A stretch of 64,000 nt of DNA from Aeriscardovia sp. GTDB taxonomy: Bacteria > Actinomycetota > Actinomycetes > Actinomycetales > Bifidobacteriaceae. The notes under the pieces are model-generated. The model was not told the DNA's origin. It saw only the letters and a program-made list of their open reading frames with translations, and did not search any database. Positions 30,029 through 38,236 of this stretch are shown here, in pieces (positions within the stretch are counted from its first letter, which is position 1; each line of letters starts with the position of its first letter). The DNA lies in the NCBI GenBank assembly GCA_017632945.1, contig JAGBQH010000012.1:1-64000 (forward strand), given 5' to 3'. Position numbers and translations under genes: made by a program.

Positions 30029-33000
30029 TTACCCTTTTTTCATCCTCTTTTTAGCCAGCACCATTCCTGCCGCGGACATAAGTATTATCACCAAGCTTAA
30101 AAGCAAGATTAAAACCACTCCTTTTCCTCCTGTTAGCGGGAGGTTGTGGACAGATTCCTTCTTTTCCTGAATGCTAACTTCACTTGAATTTGACTGAACG
30201 GAGTACTCGCCCAGAGGCGAAGAAGAGAAGGAAGAGGTAGAAGAAATTTGGTTTGAATTAGCTTTAAAAGATGCGTTCTGGTTTAAAAATCCGACAAAAT
30301 CCACTTCCAAATTTCCCGAGGGGGCCAAATCGTTGGAAGTGATGTAGGAGAGGGAGGCTGGGCTAAAGGCAACAGTTAAACTCTGCCCTCCCTTAAGTTC
30401 AGGCGAATTGGAGGAACTTAGCACTTTAACCCCGGGTATGGAAGTGAGGGGCTTTCCCCCTATAGTAAAGTAAGCTGCATTTTCCGCCAAAGATCCGTTG
30501 TAAACGCTTACCCCCGACTTTGGATCTATTTCTAACCTGTAATAGCCATAGTTTCCAACCATCTTAGAAGCCTCGGGGAGGGAAGAAGTGATCCTAAAGT
30601 CTATCGGAGCATTTTGCGGGTAAGAAGGGGTGGACTGCGGTTTTCCATCCTTAACAACCTGGAGGGTGTCTGTAGGAGAAGACATTTGGAAGTTGGAAAT
30701 ATAGACCGAGGTGGCCTTATAGCTGCTCAACTGGTACTGCCAGCCTTTGTGGAAGTTTACCGTAGGTTTAGACAATCCCCACTGGCCGTCAGATTCTGTC
30801 CACCATCCGCTGGAACGCTGGGGATCTCCTGGAGAATTACTCTCGTAGCCCGCAAATGCATAGAGGGGATTTGAGGTGGAGGCATCAGAATTTAATTGCC
30901 CGTAGAAAATTATGGCAAACTTGTCTCCCGGCTTTAGCCCTCCGCTTGGCCAGTAAGCCTTGGAAGTGAAAGTTGCCGGAATCTGTCCATTTTCTTCTAT
31001 GTACTTTATGCCCGCAGAATTGAAGGCTAGTCCCCAGTAGGATGAGTCATCTGAAGAGATGGTTGGAGAGTTGGAAGCTGTTCCCGAAATGTACTGCTGG
31101 CCTTCTTCCTGCTCCTGGGGAGAAAGCCCCCCAAAGACCGTGCTGTCGTTGATGAGGGAGCCGTACTGGTACTGGAGACCCGCTACGGTCACTGTCGGGG
31201 AAATATAAGTTTGAACATCCACTCCCTTCCCGGGTGCTATTTGAATTCCGTACCATCCTGGAACTGAGATAGACTTTGCCGCCTGGGCCGTATTGGAAAG
31301 AGAATCTGGATTAGGAAGGGTAAGGGTCAACTGAAATTCTATAGATTCTCCCGGAGTGTAGACAGGATTTCTTTCCAAAAGCCCTGTGGACTGGTTTACA
31401 ACGTTTAACTGGGCCGTTAGTGGGGTGGAAATTCCGTTGTACTTTATTCCCAGGGATGCCAAGGTAGATTTCTTGGTTATAGTTTCGCCGTTCTTGTCCC
31501 CTTCATACTGGCTATAGGCAGTATCCCTGCAATTTCCCTGGTAGGAAACCGCAGAAGAATTGAGTTCCCCCGGGAAGGTTAGGGCAAAAAGAGACCCTGG
31601 ATCGATTCCCGGCTTTGTGGCCTGGGTAGCGCTCCTGGTGGCAGGGGCAAGGCCATTCTTCTCGATGTATTCTACAGATTGCCGGGTCAGGTCCACTTCA
31701 AAACTTTCCTGCCCCGATTCATCTCCCTCTATCCACTCTTCTTGAGAAGAAGATGAAATTTGAATGCCTGGAATGCTAAGCAGTGGCAAGCCCGCCAGTT
31801 CAAAATCCGAAGCGGCCTCTTTGGGATTTTCCACGCTCACTCCCGTCAGAGGGATGTCATAAAGATCGAAGTTGGCCCACTGCCCGCTCATTTGAGAAGG
31901 ATTGGGCAGAGCAGAGGAGAGCTGAAACTGCATCGGAGTTCCGATGCCTGCGTAGGGATACTGGTTGAGGTATCCGTGGTTTACCATGCTCAGATTTGCA
32001 GCTGGGTACACCTGCAGAGTTTGAGGGACTAAAGTGAGGGTCTGAGAGGAAGAGGGAGAGAAGTTTTTGATTTCTACCGACTTTGAAGGAGTGGAAGAGG
32101 CGGAAGATGAACTTTGGGAAGAAGTCTGGCTTTCAGAGGCCCAGCCTACCTGGGCTTCATCTGTCACATCCCCCGAGGCGGCGCTTGTGACAAACCCGGA
32201 GAAAGTTATTGCAAATTTGTCTCCGGGAGCCAAGCCTGCAGCTTTTCCCTGAGGAGAGGCGGAGGTGGCTGCAGATACTCCTTTTTGTTCAATTTCTTCG
32301 ATTTCAGAGGGAGTTAAGATTAGCTCCCAATAGTTGGAACCGTCGCTAGTTCCTTCAATCATCGGATTTTTGGAATCCGAAGGGCTGGTAGTAAAAGGCA
32401 AATTGGTGTAAAGGGCATACACTTCCCTGAAAATACTTAGTGGCATGCCCGCTATGGTGATGTCTCCGATATAGGCACGGTCATTTTGTATGTAGTTGGG
32501 GTTCTCTACGGCAAGGCCCGCTCCCGGAATATTTTTAATCACGAGTACGGAATTATCCTTTGCCATTTGCGAAGGATTGGGGAGGGGGAGGGTAATTTGA
32601 AACTTATGCACACCCAGGCGCGAAACTATCATTTTTGATGGATCGGAGGGGGACTCCAGGGAGGTCATGTAGTAATGGGGATTGGAAGTGTCTACCAGGC
32701 CTTGGCTATTTAAAAAGTTGAAGGAAAGGTCTTCCGGAATGCTCTCCTGCTGCCCTGTAGGAGTGAAACTAAGCTGCGCATCTTGAGAAGAAGTTAGGGT
32801 CCAGTTTCCCGAGTCTTGCATAAGCCCCACCCGGGCCTTCAAGATAGTTTCCTGGGTGGCAGAAGAATTAAGTTCTCCTGTAAAAGTCAGGGCGAAAGGC
32901 GAACCCACGGCAATTTTGGGGCTGGAAGACTGGGGGGAGGAAGCCGTAGCGGGAGAGAAGCCTGCTTTTTCTATTTTTTCTATGTCTTCCGCTGTAAGTT

Positions 33001-34090
33001 CAAGGATCCAATAGGCAAATTTGCCTCCCTCTACGCTTTCGGACTCTGAGGAAGGTTGCACTTTCCATCCCGATGGAAGCGAAGAGAGTGGAAGTCCTGC
33101 CACTTTAACTTGTCCAAGGTTTGTCAGGCTGATGCCTAAGGAAGGAATGAGTTCAAAAGAGAAATATGAAGAGCTTCCGGTAAGGGAAGAGGGATCCGGG
33201 AGGGTAGCCACTGCTTGGAAGTCAATCGGAGTTCCCGGCTGAACCTCTATTTTTTGCTTATCATCAAAAAGGCCGGATTTTATCTCTCCTAGTTCTATAT
33301 TTAAATGGCTTTCATTCGTCAGAGCTTTGGCGCCCATGTCCAAAGTGTCTGTCGATGCCCCCACCCAAGAACTTGGAGCTTGGCCACTGAAACTGGGCCA
33401 TCCTGCCCATGCTGTAAGGGCATCTTTTTTTCCGGAAGAGTTGACACTTATCTTGGCATAAAATACTATGCCAAATCTTTCTCCGGGCTGAAGGCCGGGG
33501 CTGGAAGACTGGGGAGAAGAAGCCGTAGCTGCCTTGTATCCGTTCTGTTCCAAAAAAGTAATAAAAGCTGATGTAAGGGTGAGAGTCCACTGCGTGCCCC
33601 AGTAAACAGGCGAAGAAGTGCCAGTCATCTGCACTCCCTCGAGGTTTCCCTGATACATTTGCTCTAGCAGTCCAACATTGGGATTGGAATTTGAAGAGGC
33701 TGTTGATATGTTCATGCCTGCAAATTCAGGGGCCAGATCATAGCCCATCCACGTTTGCCCTATGCCTAAGTTCAGTTCTGACACTCCTCCGGCGGCTACG
33801 GCCGAAATAGCATAGCCCGTGGCATTGCTTTCATTGTTTACCTGTTGAACGCTTGGGAGCACTGCGCTGAGCTGCAGCTTATAGTAGGGCTGTTTCTCAT
33901 TAAAGTTTGGATTGGTTTCTACAAGGCCATCAGAATTTAAGACATTTATCTGTACATCTGGATTAAATGCGGCGTTGGCGTAGGATCGCAATCCAAATGA
34001 CAAAGCTATTGCCAAAGCGCAGATTATAACTAAGAAACAAAGAACGATCTTTTTAGGTGTTTTTTTGCGAATGCGACGGTAAACTTCCAA
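30029..34090 (-). CDS. Giant LPxTG wall-anchored surface protein with six diverged repeat units (protein A)
   Basis: 1353 aa. The N-terminus has a basic start and a hydrophobic core (IVLCFLVIICALAIALSFGL), a Sec signal peptide ending near residue 40. The C-terminus is a full sorting signal: LPLTG at 1317-1321, a hydrophobic span and a KKRMKKG tail, so sortase should link it to peptidoglycan. Between lie six units, about residues 42-262, 263-454, 455-698, 699-893, 894-1139 and 1140-1310. Each has a strand start (LNV..NSDGLVE), an LPxPSxM stretch, a VAGLPLSS element, an IExIEKxG helix, and a close such as PGDKFAITFSGxLNSSA. I do not know the repeat family; an adhesin or ligand-binding stalk is likely. 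TTG start after CGGAGGTAAGGC. Confidence 0.85.
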   Translation of the reverse strand: MEVYRRIRKKTPKKIVLCFLVIICALAIALSFGLRSYANAAFNPDVQINVLNSDGLVETNPNFNEKQPYYKLQLSAVLPSVQQVNNESNATGYAISAVAAGGVSELNLGIGQTWMGYDLAPEFAGMNISTASSNSNPNVGLLEQMYQGNLEGVQMTGTSSPVYWGTQWTLTLTSAFITFLEQNGYKAATASSPQSSSPGLQPGERFGIVFYAKISVNSSGKKDALTAWAGWPSFSGQAPSSWVGASTDTLDMGAKALTNESHLNIELGEIKSGLFDDKQKIEVQPGTPIDFQAVATLPDPSSLTGSSSYFSFELIPSLGISLTNLGQVKVAGLPLSSLPSGWKVQPSSESESVEGGKFAYWILELTAEDIEKIEKAGFSPATASSPQSSSPKIAVGSPFALTFTGELNSSATQETILKARVGLMQDSGNWTLTSSQDAQLSFTPTGQQESIPEDLSFNFLNSQGLVDTSNPHYYMTSLESPSDPSKMIVSRLGVHKFQITLPLPNPSQMAKDNSVLVIKNIPGAGLAVENPNYIQNDRAYIGDITIAGMPLSIFREVYALYTNLPFTTSPSDSKNPMIEGTSDGSNYWELILTPSEIEEIEQKGVSAATSASPQGKAAGLAPGDKFAITFSGFVTSAASGDVTDEAQVGWASESQTSSQSSSSASSTPSKSVEIKNFSPSSSQTLTLVPQTLQVYPAANLSMVNHGYLNQYPYAGIGTPMQFQLSSALPNPSQMSGQWANFDLYDIPLTGVSVENPKEAASDFELAGLPLLSIPGIQISSSSQEEWIEGDESGQESFEVDLTRQSVEYIEKNGLAPATRSATQATKPGIDPGSLFALTFPGELNSSAVSYQGNCRDTAYSQYEGDKNGETITKKSTLASLGIKYNGISTPLTAQLNVVNQSTGLLERNPVYTPGESIEFQLTLTLPNPDSLSNTAQAAKSISVPGWYGIQIAPGKGVDVQTYISPTVTVAGLQYQYGSLINDSTVFGGLSPQEQEEGQQYISGTASNSPTISSDDSSYWGLAFNSAGIKYIEENGQIPATFTSKAYWPSGGLKPGDKFAIIFYGQLNSDASTSNPLYAFAGYESNSPGDPQRSSGWWTESDGQWGLSKPTVNFHKGWQYQLSSYKATSVYISNFQMSSPTDTLQVVKDGKPQSTPSYPQNAPIDFRITSSLPEASKMVGNYGYYRLEIDPKSGVSVYNGSLAENAAYFTIGGKPLTSIPGVKVLSSSNSPELKGGQSLTVAFSPASLSYITSNDLAPSGNLEVDFVGFLNQNASFKANSNQISSTSSFSSSPLGEYSVQSNSSEVSIQEKKESVHNLPLTGGKGVVLILLLSLVIILMSAAGMVLAKKRMKKG
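30161..33967 (-). repeat. Six protein-level repeat units in surface protein A
   Basis: Unit DNA limits, from N- to C-terminus: 33967-33305, 33304-32729, 32728-31997, 31996-31412, 31411-30674, 30673-30161. Units 1 and 2 share an exact PATASSPQSSSP-type block (ATASSPQSSSP); units 3 and 4 keep SATxxSxQ variants; unit 6 has lost most of this block. Units are not recent copies: DNA similarity between them is low except in that block. Confidence 0.7.
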
Positions 34091-34195
34091 GCCTTACCTC
34101 CGTAGCTGCCAAACTAATGTAATGGTTCTTCTTTCACTATATATGTTCCGCCCCCGCGCCTCCTCTCAGGGGAAGCATTTCTTCTCCCTTTTTTC

Positions 34196-37100
34196 TTATT
34201 CTCTCCTGAACTTTTTGTTTATTTCCCAAGCTCCCACGCCTGCCGCAAAGAGAAGAACGCTAAAAACGGAAAGCATAAACATGCTTATGTATTTGTCTCC
34301 GGTAAACGGAAGATTTTTAATGCTGATTTCCTCTTCTTCCTGAACGCTGATTTCGCTTTGTTCCGATTGCAGGGAAAAGTCTCCGCTCACCGAAGGAGCC
34401 AGAAAAGATGTGGCCTCGATATTGTTGGATTTTGGGGTTTGGGAAGCGTTCTGGTTTAGGTACCCGACGACATCTATCTCCACGCTACCCGCCTGGGCCA
34501 ACCCCTTGGAAACCAGATAGCTGATTGAGGACGGAGAGAAAATTATGCTTACGCTTTCCGGATTTTCAATGGAAGCGGAAGAAGAAGAGCTCAAAATTTT
34601 AACTCCAGGAACTGAAGAAAGAGGGCTTCCCCCCACGGTAAGGTACTGCGAGTTTGAAGCAAGAGCCCCGTTGTAGAGGCTAATTCCGGATTCGGGAGTT
34701 ATTTCTATCCTGAGATAACTGTAATTTCCTACCATATTTTCAGAGGAGGGAAGGGTGGATGAGACTTGAAAATCTATGGGATTCCCCTGGGGGTAGGAGG
34801 GGTTTTCCTGTACCTTTCCGTTTTGGATTACTTGAATAGTTGAAACGGGAGAAGAAACCTGAAGAGCAGAGACGTAGAGAGTCGCGCTTTTGTAGCTTCC
34901 CCTCTCATACTTCCAAAGCTCGTTTGTGGGAAGGTAGTTTACGGTAGAAGCTCCCTGTCCGTTGCATAGAATCCACCATCCGCTAGACATCCCAGGATCT
35001 TGCGGGAAATTGCTCTGATAACCTGCAAACCCGTAAAGGGCATTTGAGGCTCCCGTAACTCCTGATGAAAGTTCTCCATAAAAGGTTATAGCGAACTTAT
35101 CTCCGGGTTTTAAACCCCCAACAGGTTTGTAGGCTTTGGAGGAAAAAGTTGCTGCCGCTTCTCCATTCTCTTCAATGTACTTGACACCGGCAGAGTTAAA
35201 GGCCATTCCCCAGTAGGTGGAATCTTTGGAGGGAATGGTAGGGGAGTTTGAGGAGGAACCGGAAATATATTGCTGATTGTCTTCCTGCTGCTGAGGGCTG
35301 AGGCCTCCAAAAACTGTAGAGTCTCCCTGCAAAGTGGAGTTGCCCTGGTATTCCATGCCGGCCACATAAGTGGAGTTGGAAAGAAAGGTCTCAACCTCCA
35401 TTCCCTCTCCTGGAGATACCTGCACTCCGTACCAACCCGGGATTGTGAGGGATTGAGCGGCGGCGGAAGTGTTGATAAGGGAGGCCGGATCGGGAAGAGT
35501 GAGGGTCAATTGAAACTCTATGGGTTCACCGGGGGCATAGACGGGATTTCTCTCCAAAAGCCCCGTAGATTGGTTCACCACGTTCAGTTGGGCTGAAAGG
35601 GAAGTGGAAATGCCGTTATACTTTACTCCCACTGATGCCAGGGTCGACTTTTCCTCATAACTTTGCCCGTCCTCATTTCCTTTGTAGAAGCTATAAGCCG
35701 TGTTAAAGCAATTGGAGTGCTGGAGAGGAGCGGAAGAATTTAGCTCTCCGGAAAAGGTGAGAGCAAAAAGGGAACCTGGATTAATTGCAGGTGTTTTTGA
35801 AGCCTGGGCGCTTCTTGTGGCCGGAGAGTAGCCGTACTTTTCGAGGTATTCTACCGAGGAGACCGAAAGTTCTACTGTAAAGCTCTGGCTTTTAGCTTCG
35901 TTTCCTTCTAGCCATTCATTTGTCGAAGAAGAACTTACCTTTATGCCCGGAACGCTAAGAAGAGGCAAGCCTGCAATCTCAAAATCGGACGGGCTTTCTT
36001 CTGGATTTTCCACACTCACTCCCGATCTGGGAGCATCCGTCAGGCTAAAAGTGGAGTACTTTCCGGTCATTTGAGAAGGATTGGGCAGCGCTGCTTCGAG
36101 CTGGTAGGTTATAGGTGTTTGCAGGCCGGTGTAGGGATTTTGGTTTATGTATCCCTGGTCTAGCACATTCAAGTTTGCTGCGGGGGCGACAGTCAGAGTC
36201 TGGGGATAGAGAGAAACAGACTGGGTAGAAATGACCTGCTGGGATTCTTCTTCCAGATCCGAGGAAGATTGAGATGCCCATGAAAGCTGGAGCTGATCTG
36301 TCACGACGCCAGAGGCTTTATTTGTCACAAAACCGTTGAAGACGATGGCGAACTTGTCTCCGGGTTGTAGTCCGGACGCCCCTTGGGGGGAGGAAGGAGT
36401 GGCGGGACCCGAACCGTACTGCTCTATCTCTTCAATTTCCGAGGGAGTTAAAACCAGTTCCCAATAGCTTGAACCCTCTTGGCTTCCCTCTATCATTGCG
36501 ACCGTGTTCTCGCAGCTGGTCTTGAAAGTTGGCTTTAATTTGTCGCTTCCAATAGGCTGGCCCGCTATGGAGAATTGTCCGTTTTGCGAGTAAGAAGCGG
36601 AAATGTTGGTCAGGATATACTCCGGATTTGGAAGAGCCAAGCCCTGTCCGGGGATATTTTTAATAACCAGAGCGGACTCGTTTCCCTTCATATCTGCAGG
36701 ATTTGGGAGAGTGATTACTACTTGAAAGCGGAATTTTCCGGTAGAGCTGTTAAGCATGGTAGAGGAGTCTGAAGTAGTCTCCAGTTTAGTCGAGTAGTAG
36801 TAGGGGCTCGATGTTTCTACGAGGCCGTCAGAATTAAGAAGGTTAATCTCCATCTCTTCCTGAGGCTGCTCTTCTGTGCTTCCCTCCAAAGAGATTGCGA
36901 TTTGGGCAGGAGAGGGCGAAACCCGGCTCCATGCCGTCTGGGACTTAAGCCCCGTAATAGCCCTTAAGTAGGAAGTCTGAGGGGGATTGCTTGAAAGCTG
37001 GCCTGAAAAAGTTAAGGCAAAGGGCGAACCCACTTTAATTCCGGGAGTGCTTGCCTGGGGCTGGGAAGAAGAAGCCGGGGCAAATCCGTCCTTTTCAATT

Positions 37101-38236
37101 TGCAAAATATCGGCTGCGCTAAGTTCCAATACCCAGTAGGCAAACCTTCCGCCCTCTACAGTTGAATCCGACCCCGAGGAAGTTTCTTCTTTCCATCCCG
37201 CATCAAGGCTTGAAAGGGGAATGCCGGCTACTTTTGCCGACTGAAGATTTGTCAAATTAAGCCCTAAAGAGGGAAGGAGTTTAAAGGCAAAGTAGGAGCT
37301 TTGATCTGTCATGGAGGAAGGGTCGGGGAGGGAAGAAGTCGCTTGAAAGTCTAAAGAAGATCCCTGAGGTGCAGAAAGGGTCTGATCTTTTTCAAAAAGG
37401 CCTTCCTTTATCTGTCCCAATTCCACGTTCAAATCCCCTTCGTTTTTGGTTTCGGGGGGAGCCATGTTAATGGAGCTGGTGGAAAGGGAAGACCAGGAAG
37501 ATGGGCTCTGGGTGGCACTGCCTGCAAAGCCGCTATAGGCGGTTAGCTTGTTTTTGCTGCTCTGTGTGGAAGAAGAAATCTTTATGTAAAAAGTTATCCC
37601 AAACCTGTCGCCCGGCTGCAGGCCCGTAGCGGAAGCCGTAGGAGCCTGGGCGGTAGCGGCCTTATGCCCGTACTGTTCTAAGAAGCTTATGGCAGAGGAA
37701 TTGAATGTTAGAGTCCACCCTTCCCCAGCCCCGCTCCACACATTGGTAGCCGAGTTTAAGCCTGAAGTGGATATTCCCCCTATGGCCTGCGTTATTATAT
37801 TTTCTTCTACTCCCACCGAATTATTGCTCGTTGCGTTGTATTGTTCCGACAGATTAATACCGGCCAGAGTTGGGGCATACTGCTGGTTTACAGCCCATGT
37901 TCCCAACATCCCCAGCGCAGTGCTTTCTACCCCTCCGGCTACCTGGGCCCCCATGGCGAAGGCTTTGCCCTCGTTTTCCACGTCCTGGGCCGTGGGCAAG
38001 ATCGCGCTCAGTTGCATATGGTACGTTTGAGCCATTTTAAAGGAAGGATTGGTATCTACGGTGCCGTTGGAATTTAAGGCTTCCAGCTCTACATCGGGAT
38101 TAAAAACAGATGGGGAAGCATAAGACTTGAGGCCAAAAATCAAACCTAGGCTTAAAACACAGGCCGCCACCGAGAAAAAAAGGAGGAAGTACCTGACGTG
38201 CTTTTTAAGAACGTTGTTGCGGTGGTAGCTCCTCAT
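34196..38236 (-). CDS. Giant LPxTG wall-anchored surface protein with six diverged repeat units (protein B)
   Basis: 1346 aa, tandem paralogue of protein A and collinear with it unit by unit. Signal peptide: basic start, then FLLFFSVAACVLSLGLIFGL. Sorting signal LPFTG at 1309-1313, a hydrophobic span, then NKKFRRE. Units run from about residue 45, with borders near 268, 461, 688, 884 and 1134. Conserved landmarks include SLPDPSSM, VAGIPLSSL, LTPSEIEEIEQYG, GLQPGDKFAIVFNG and NVVNQSTGLLERNPVY, the last identical to protein A. Single cysteines occur in some units, without an obvious pair. ATG start after AAAGGAGCAAATAA. No sortase is encoded in the window. Confidence 0.85.
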   Translation of the reverse strand: MRSYHRNNVLKKHVRYFLLFFSVAACVLSLGLIFGLKSYASPSVFNPDVELEALNSNGTVDTNPSFKMAQTYHMQLSAILPTAQDVENEGKAFAMGAQVAGGVESTALGMLGTWAVNQQYAPTLAGINLSEQYNATSNNSVGVEENIITQAIGGISTSGLNSATNVWSGAGEGWTLTFNSSAISFLEQYGHKAATAQAPTASATGLQPGDRFGITFYIKISSSTQSSKNKLTAYSGFAGSATQSPSSWSSLSTSSINMAPPETKNEGDLNVELGQIKEGLFEKDQTLSAPQGSSLDFQATSSLPDPSSMTDQSSYFAFKLLPSLGLNLTNLQSAKVAGIPLSSLDAGWKEETSSGSDSTVEGGRFAYWVLELSAADILQIEKDGFAPASSSQPQASTPGIKVGSPFALTFSGQLSSNPPQTSYLRAITGLKSQTAWSRVSPSPAQIAISLEGSTEEQPQEEMEINLLNSDGLVETSSPYYYSTKLETTSDSSTMLNSSTGKFRFQVVITLPNPADMKGNESALVIKNIPGQGLALPNPEYILTNISASYSQNGQFSIAGQPIGSDKLKPTFKTSCENTVAMIEGSQEGSSYWELVLTPSEIEEIEQYGSGPATPSSPQGASGLQPGDKFAIVFNGFVTNKASGVVTDQLQLSWASQSSSDLEEESQQVISTQSVSLYPQTLTVAPAANLNVLDQGYINQNPYTGLQTPITYQLEAALPNPSQMTGKYSTFSLTDAPRSGVSVENPEESPSDFEIAGLPLLSVPGIKVSSSSTNEWLEGNEAKSQSFTVELSVSSVEYLEKYGYSPATRSAQASKTPAINPGSLFALTFSGELNSSAPLQHSNCFNTAYSFYKGNEDGQSYEEKSTLASVGVKYNGISTSLSAQLNVVNQSTGLLERNPVYAPGEPIEFQLTLTLPDPASLINTSAAAQSLTIPGWYGVQVSPGEGMEVETFLSNSTYVAGMEYQGNSTLQGDSTVFGGLSPQQQEDNQQYISGSSSNSPTIPSKDSTYWGMAFNSAGVKYIEENGEAAATFSSKAYKPVGGLKPGDKFAITFYGELSSGVTGASNALYGFAGYQSNFPQDPGMSSGWWILCNGQGASTVNYLPTNELWKYERGSYKSATLYVSALQVSSPVSTIQVIQNGKVQENPSYPQGNPIDFQVSSTLPSSENMVGNYSYLRIEITPESGISLYNGALASNSQYLTVGGSPLSSVPGVKILSSSSSASIENPESVSIIFSPSSISYLVSKGLAQAGSVEIDVVGYLNQNASQTPKSNNIEATSFLAPSVSGDFSLQSEQSEISVQEEEEISIKNLPFTGDKYISMFMLSVFSVLLFAAGVGAWEINKKFRRE
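34331..38104 (-). repeat. Six protein-level repeat units in surface protein B
   Basis: Same order as in protein A, with matching insertions: unit 3 has the long serine-rich linker before the next unit, and unit 5 the long segment with FGGLSPQ and QQYISG. The matching of unit n in A with unit n in B shows that the six-unit form existed before the gene duplicated. Confidence 0.7.

Follow-up and report, generated by a model that had tools for sequence, protein, structure and literature searches.

Shaft pilins such as SpaA/SpaD, BcpA, LrpA and EbpC carry one CnaA-type domain, termed D2 or M, whose family TIGR04226 (RrgB_K2N_iso_D2) is the isopeptide-forming fimbrial D2 domain of pilins. The residues concerned form a triad of a Lys in the first strand, a catalytic Asp and an Asn in the penultimate strand; in the D2 domain of SpaD, the bond forms between Lys187 and Asn299, and Asp224 acts as the catalyst (PMC4014117). 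Sortase-dependent pilins of Bifidobacterium, for example FimM, likewise polymerise and carry isopeptide residues (PMC7719627). Tandem CnaA-like modules also occur in monomeric surface proteins, the DUF11/CLIPPER fibrillar adhesins, for which members without the isopeptide bond have been noted earlier (PMC12617251), and a related fold is found in the C-terminal domains of antigen I/II and the collagen-binding domain of Ace, both from wall-anchored adhesins of gram-positive bacteria. Here we analysed two adjacent genes, named A and B, in the first 64,000 nucleotides (64 kb, the window) of contig JAGBQH010000012.1 of the genome of an uncultured Aeriscardovia sp. (G000; 788 kb, 12 contigs, 99% complete). 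Each encodes an LPxTG protein with six D2-like units, and the main surprise is this tandem use of the pilin D2 fold apparently without its cross-link.

Relationship of the units to pilin D2 domains

The sequence-only reading of the window described A and B as wall-anchored LPxTG proteins of about 1350 aa that share a six-unit plan. Both genes were found as described, as open reading frames (ORFs) of 1353 and 1346 aa with sorting signals, and their products are ~55% identical. The plan holds as well: a profile of the units finds six in each protein, with a domain E of ~1e-48 or lower for every one, although the profile was trained on these same units and the result gives their register rather than independent proof. 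Units at differing positions match each other in BLASTP far beyond chance (E down to 1e-27). The motifs that had been named are real (LPxPSxM, VAGLPLSS, the IExIEKxG helix and PGDKFAITFSGxLNSSA), and in the unit model presented below IExIEKxG and FAITFSG are predicted as a helix and a strand, respectively. Unit lengths range from 163 to 241 aa, a spread that comes from loop insertions and serine-rich linkers.

TIGR04226 was the best weak match to the units, with E 5.7e-4 for unit 4 of B (B residues 707-847) and E 1.6e-5 for an orthologue. An AlphaFold2 model of B unit 4 built from 42 aligned units reached a predicted local distance difference test score (pLDDT) of 94 and a predicted template modelling score (pTM) of 0.90, and this unit is predicted to be an isolated folded domain. 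When the model was compared with the PDB by Foldseek, the best 28 matches were, almost without exception, pilins of the major, shaft or basal type (LrpA, BcpA, GBS80, CppA, EbpB/C, SpaD and PilA), with E down to 5e-8. Next came CnaA-type or related folds (Ace, the antigen I/II C-terminus, Sgo0707 and DUF11/CLIPPER). At the fold level (TM-score ~0.5), the model of this one unit has a CnaA-like fold, an immunoglobulin-like (Ig-like) open barrel.

Over 151 Bifidobacteriaceae genomes, the unit profile matched pilin-sized LPxTG ORFs in other genera; what it finds is the D2 domain of pilin-type proteins of this bacterial family, to which Bifidobacterium with its pilins such as FimM also belongs. In four other genomes the match coincided with the independently determined position of TIGR04226 (for example, 30128-30616 against 30089-30604 in G048:C5, and 1286-1768 against 1298-1813 in G059:C35). 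When the unit profile was compared by hhalign with a profile of 25 D2 domains from pilins, the probability was 91.7% and P was 7.9e-7 over 125 columns, whereas the controls (one reversed and 12 column-shuffled) gave P values of 0.26-0.95. A reciprocal hidden Markov model of pilin D2 matched units 2, 3, 4 and 6 in register; units 1, 3 and 5 are tied to D2 mainly through other units. Because the weak TIGR04226 match, the fold, the genome positions and the profile-profile comparison agree, we conclude that the units are highly diverged CnaA-type D2 domains of sortase-assembled pilins, arranged in tandem. The view that they contain no nameable domain and form an unknown family is thus superseded. 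The sequence-only reading had set, as the finding that would speak against it, a strong match of the units to the profile of a known adhesin family. This was obtained in part: the match to pilin D2 exists, and it is weakened by missing every curated cut-off.

Several results weigh against the D2 assignment. The units missed the TIGR04226 cut-off of 30 bits (best 20.7 bits in B of the window and 25.7 bits in the B orthologue of G002), no Pfam family was found for them, no curated Pfam or NCBIfam cut-off was reached, and a sequence search of the PDB matched no chain. A single unit, B unit 4, was modelled with confidence; its TM-scores to pilins were only ~0.4-0.57, a fold-level likeness, at an identity of 8-17%. 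A six-unit AlphaFold2 model from seven orthologues was of too low confidence (pLDDT 57, pTM 0.28) to show a rod shape. Such low identities, moderate TM-scores and missed cut-offs are also what one would see if the units were unrelated Ig-like or beta-sandwich domains that resemble pilin D2 by convergence. We regard convergence as very unlikely, given that the profile-profile match is collinear and lies far beyond the shuffled controls, and that the unit profile lands on pilin D2 itself in the four genomes above.

The other described systems are more distant. The antigen I/II and Ace domains had lower fold scores, belong to other architectures and show no sequence match to the units. Pfam DUF11 did not match any of the 42 units at E up to 1, and the fold search placed the modelled unit closer to pilin D2 than to DUF11/CLIPPER. 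A mobile-element origin was unsupported, as phage and plasmid collections held no relative.

Cross-link residues, wall anchoring and possible function

The modelled unit resembles the D2 domain of shaft pilins in its fold, and the units do so in the order of strands and landmarks and in their LPxTG-protein context; they differ in that A and B carry six in tandem and pilins one. The triad is also different. Canonical pilin D2 domains of Bifidobacteriaceae (n = 25) have the Lys in 25, the Asp in 25 and the Asn in 24 cases, whereas none of the 42 units has a complete triad: the first-strand Lys is absent from all, the Asp is kept in seven (unit 4) and the Asn in four. Judged from the alignment, the units appear to lack the Lys-Asn intramolecular cross-link; that the positions were mapped by alignment and not from superposed coordinates is a further point against our reading.

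A and B also lack a recognised D3 SpaA domain, the YPKN-type pilin motif of D1 and an E-box. Against NF033902, the SpaH/EbpB-type major pilin family, A scored 26.5 of 95 bits and matched through its sorting-signal end alone. On these sequence features, the missing pilin motif and E-box mean that A and B are not shaft pilins, and they do not belong to the isopeptide D2 family as it is defined.

Both proteins have the parts of a sortase-anchored surface protein, namely a signal segment, an LPxTG motif, a hydrophobic segment and a charged tail, and sortases are encoded in the genome. Residues 1-41 of B comprise a basic N terminus, a hydrophobic core and a cleavage-like site, SYASP, as read from the sequence and the alignment. 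The sorting signal of A passes the cut-off of TIGR01167 (LPXTG_anchor; 18.3 against 15.9 bits); the LPFTG end of B has the same arrangement but no library match. A sortase gene elsewhere in the genome had been suggested as something to look for, and two were found, one of class E and one of class C (pilin-type).

A and B are likely, in our view, to be fibrillar proteins of the cell surface, each a single sortase-anchored chain of six D2-derived CnaA-type domains without cross-link residues that most likely serves as an adhesin or a spacer. The chain would be exported, cut at LPxTG and fixed to peptidoglycan by a sortase, presumably that of class E or class C, and would carry unit 1, the most variable unit, outward to a host, protozoan or microbial surface. 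The architecture makes a role as an adhesin or stalk likely, in line with what had been proposed from the sequence. Like the DUF11/CLIPPER adhesins, A and B would be monomeric surface proteins with CnaA-like modules in tandem, and modules without the isopeptide bond are noted there too, but A and B have no recognisable separate adhesion head.

Alternatively, A and B could be pilus components, large tip or basal pilins that the class C sortase puts into a heteropolymer. Every one of the seven genus genomes keeps that sortase, a D2 fold is what pilins typically have, and the C terminus of A gives the weak NF033902 match. Other Bifidobacteriaceae have large LPxTG-type proteins (1400-1600 aa) with one clear D2 each and no array, and a tip role is compatible with the sequences since the Lys motif is dispensable for a tip pilin. 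Even so, we consider a pilus role unlikely. The pilin motif and E-box are missing, no sortase gene adjoins A or B, and the class C sortase gene is found at the end of a contig, with arginine-deiminase-pathway genes as neighbours. A and B lie between smpB/prfB and other, unrelated genes.

At the border of units 3 and 4 in A and B (~window 36180-36215 in B), a segment ahead of unit 4 reads SLYPQ, LVPQ or LFPK and resembles the YPK pilin motif. Only G001 and G006, two of the six relatives of the same genus (G001-G006), have the Lys in this segment, and polymerisation may occur there.

Evolution and distribution of A and B

In a tree of the units, those at the same position in A, B and all orthologues cluster together, and the six-unit plan therefore predates the split of A and B. 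The two genes are tandem duplicates of old date, as the saturation of synonymous sites between them indicates. Recent gene conversion between them was rejected, as there is no window of near-identity and synonymous sites are saturated. Both genes are under purifying selection, with ratios of non-synonymous to synonymous substitution rates (dN/dS) between species of 0.11-0.22 (0.11-0.13 for B against its orthologues and 0.22 for A against that of G005). Identity between A and B is lowest in unit 1 (45%) and highest in units 4-5 (60-66%), a pattern that fits a chain of greater conservation with unit 1 as its variable head at the distal end.

A and B are adjacent, on the same strand, 105 bp apart and built to the same plan, and the sequence-only reading had raised the possibility of partner-to-partner action. 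A functional pair that binds each other or a common ligand nevertheless seems highly improbable to us. Both genes are intact in only one of the seven genus genomes (G000), and a lone A or B is under purifying selection elsewhere. An intact A is otherwise present in G005, which has a broken B, and an intact B in G002, which has a fragment of A, and in G004, where a short frame downstream of B keeps LPLTGG and may be what remains of A; a single copy is present in G001 and in G006, and G003 has neither gene. This differential loss argues against an obligate partnership, and the alternation is easier to reconcile with specificities that are interchangeable or differ between strains than with an obligate complex. 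A and B would then probably have overlapping or alternative specificities. A or B survives as a broken copy or remnant in G002 and G005, as does a third paralogue, gene C, in G000 and G001; these could instead be degenerating surface genes heading for loss and without a present role. We give this hardly any credence for A and B, which are full-length in G000 and show the low dN/dS values given above.

Related loci come from metagenome-assembled genomes of Aeriscardovia sp. from the abomasum or reticulum of yak, goat and buffalo, and the orthologues in the examined relatives occupy the same smpB/prfB neighbourhood. Genomes G000-G006 measure 0.6-0.9 Mb at 87-100% completeness, and most sampled relatives in the family 1.5-3 Mb; the seven represent a strongly reduced ruminant-gut bifidobacterial lineage, on which a literature search found nothing. 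None of the seven matched the canonical isopeptide D2 (TIGR04226), against 63 of 101 sampled Bifidobacteriaceae genomes. What G000 has in its place are diverged D2 units, carried by A, by B, by the broken gene C and by no fewer than two further LPxTG proteins. A search of 396 genomes of the order gave no unit array in any other genus.

It is possible, and we propose it tentatively, that this ultra-small-genome lineage of Bifidobacteriaceae gave up the covalently locked pilin D2 and now builds monomeric wall fibres from tandem arrays of the same fold without the cross-link. If so, the units would form an undescribed D2-derived domain family that builds compliant rather than rigid stalks, and the lineage would be a natural test of the purpose of the isopeptide bond. 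What was a nameless repeat is now a recognisable module. If confirmed, it would provide an isopeptide-free natural counterpart of pilin D2, with which the share of the cross-link in stability and in adhesion under flow could be measured, and a new domain family for Pfam or NCBIfam.

Feature coordinates and other genes with D2-like units

Coordinates of genes A and B and of their parts in the window
Feature	Position	Strand	Description and basis
Gene B	34196..38236	-	1346-aa LPxTG-anchored protein, six D2-like units, ATG start; ORF, unit profile, dN/dS
B N-terminal signal-peptide-type segment, residues 1-41	38114..38236	-	Read from sequence, conserved in alignment
B unit 1	37451..38113	-	Long mid-domain insertion; unit profile
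B unit 2	36863..37450	-	Unit profile
B unit 3 with serine-rich linker	36191..36862	-	Unit profile
B unit 4	35591..36190	-	Predicted pilin D2-like folded domain; AlphaFold2 pLDDT 94, pTM 0.90; weak TIGR04226 match
B unit 5	34880..35590	-	Unit profile
B unit 6	34391..34879	-	Unit profile
B sorting motif LPFTG	34298..34312	-	Followed by hydrophobic segment and charged tail; sequence
Gene A	30029..34090	-	1353-aa LPxTG-anchored protein, six D2-like units, TTG start behind GGAGG
A unit 1	33323..33973	-	Unit profile
A unit 2	32735..33322	-	Unit profile
A unit 3 with serine-rich linker	32012..32734	-	Unit profile
A unit 4	31412..32011	-	Unit profile
A unit 5	30707..31411	-	Unit profile
A unit 6	30218..30706	-	Unit profile
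A sorting motif LPLTG	30128..30142	-	Followed by hydrophobic segment and charged tail; TIGR01167, sequence

No pilin gene cluster was seen next to the class C sortase gene (G000:C12:145-1074, locus L027), which stands alone beside the arginine-deiminase-pathway genes and, in most of the genus genomes, close to the end of a contig. Pilin genes hidden at the contig breaks beside the sortase gene were considered and rejected: the sequence at this contig end has one further copy, at the start of contig C2, and probably represents an rRNA operon leader.

An intact gene C is present in G006, where it encodes 1097 aa with five units and LPLTGG. In G000 (G000:C9:122685-125763; locus L009 6686-9764, minus strand) it is broken into at least three frames, and it is also disrupted in G001. 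No long homopolymer was present at the disruption sites looked at; phase variation was set aside, and a decaying surface-protein gene is weakly preferred.

Related units were further detected in LPxTG proteins of 1319 aa on contig C5 and 774 aa on contig C2, and only marginally in one of 1046 aa on C5. The C5 proteins belong to an LPxTG cluster (G000:C5:63056-70528, locus L064) that comprises the 1046-aa and 1319-aa proteins and a third that runs off the contig and of which the sorting-signal end remains, and they combine diverged D2-like units with SpaA-like FEGW...GLxDGTYTV segments. The 774-aa LPLTGG protein (G000:C2:64574-66898; locus L065 2575-4899) has one D2-like unit (E 1e-10, unit profile) and, by eye, a prealbumin-like C-terminal segment. 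Though no library names it as such, it may be a pilin on which the lone class C sortase acts.

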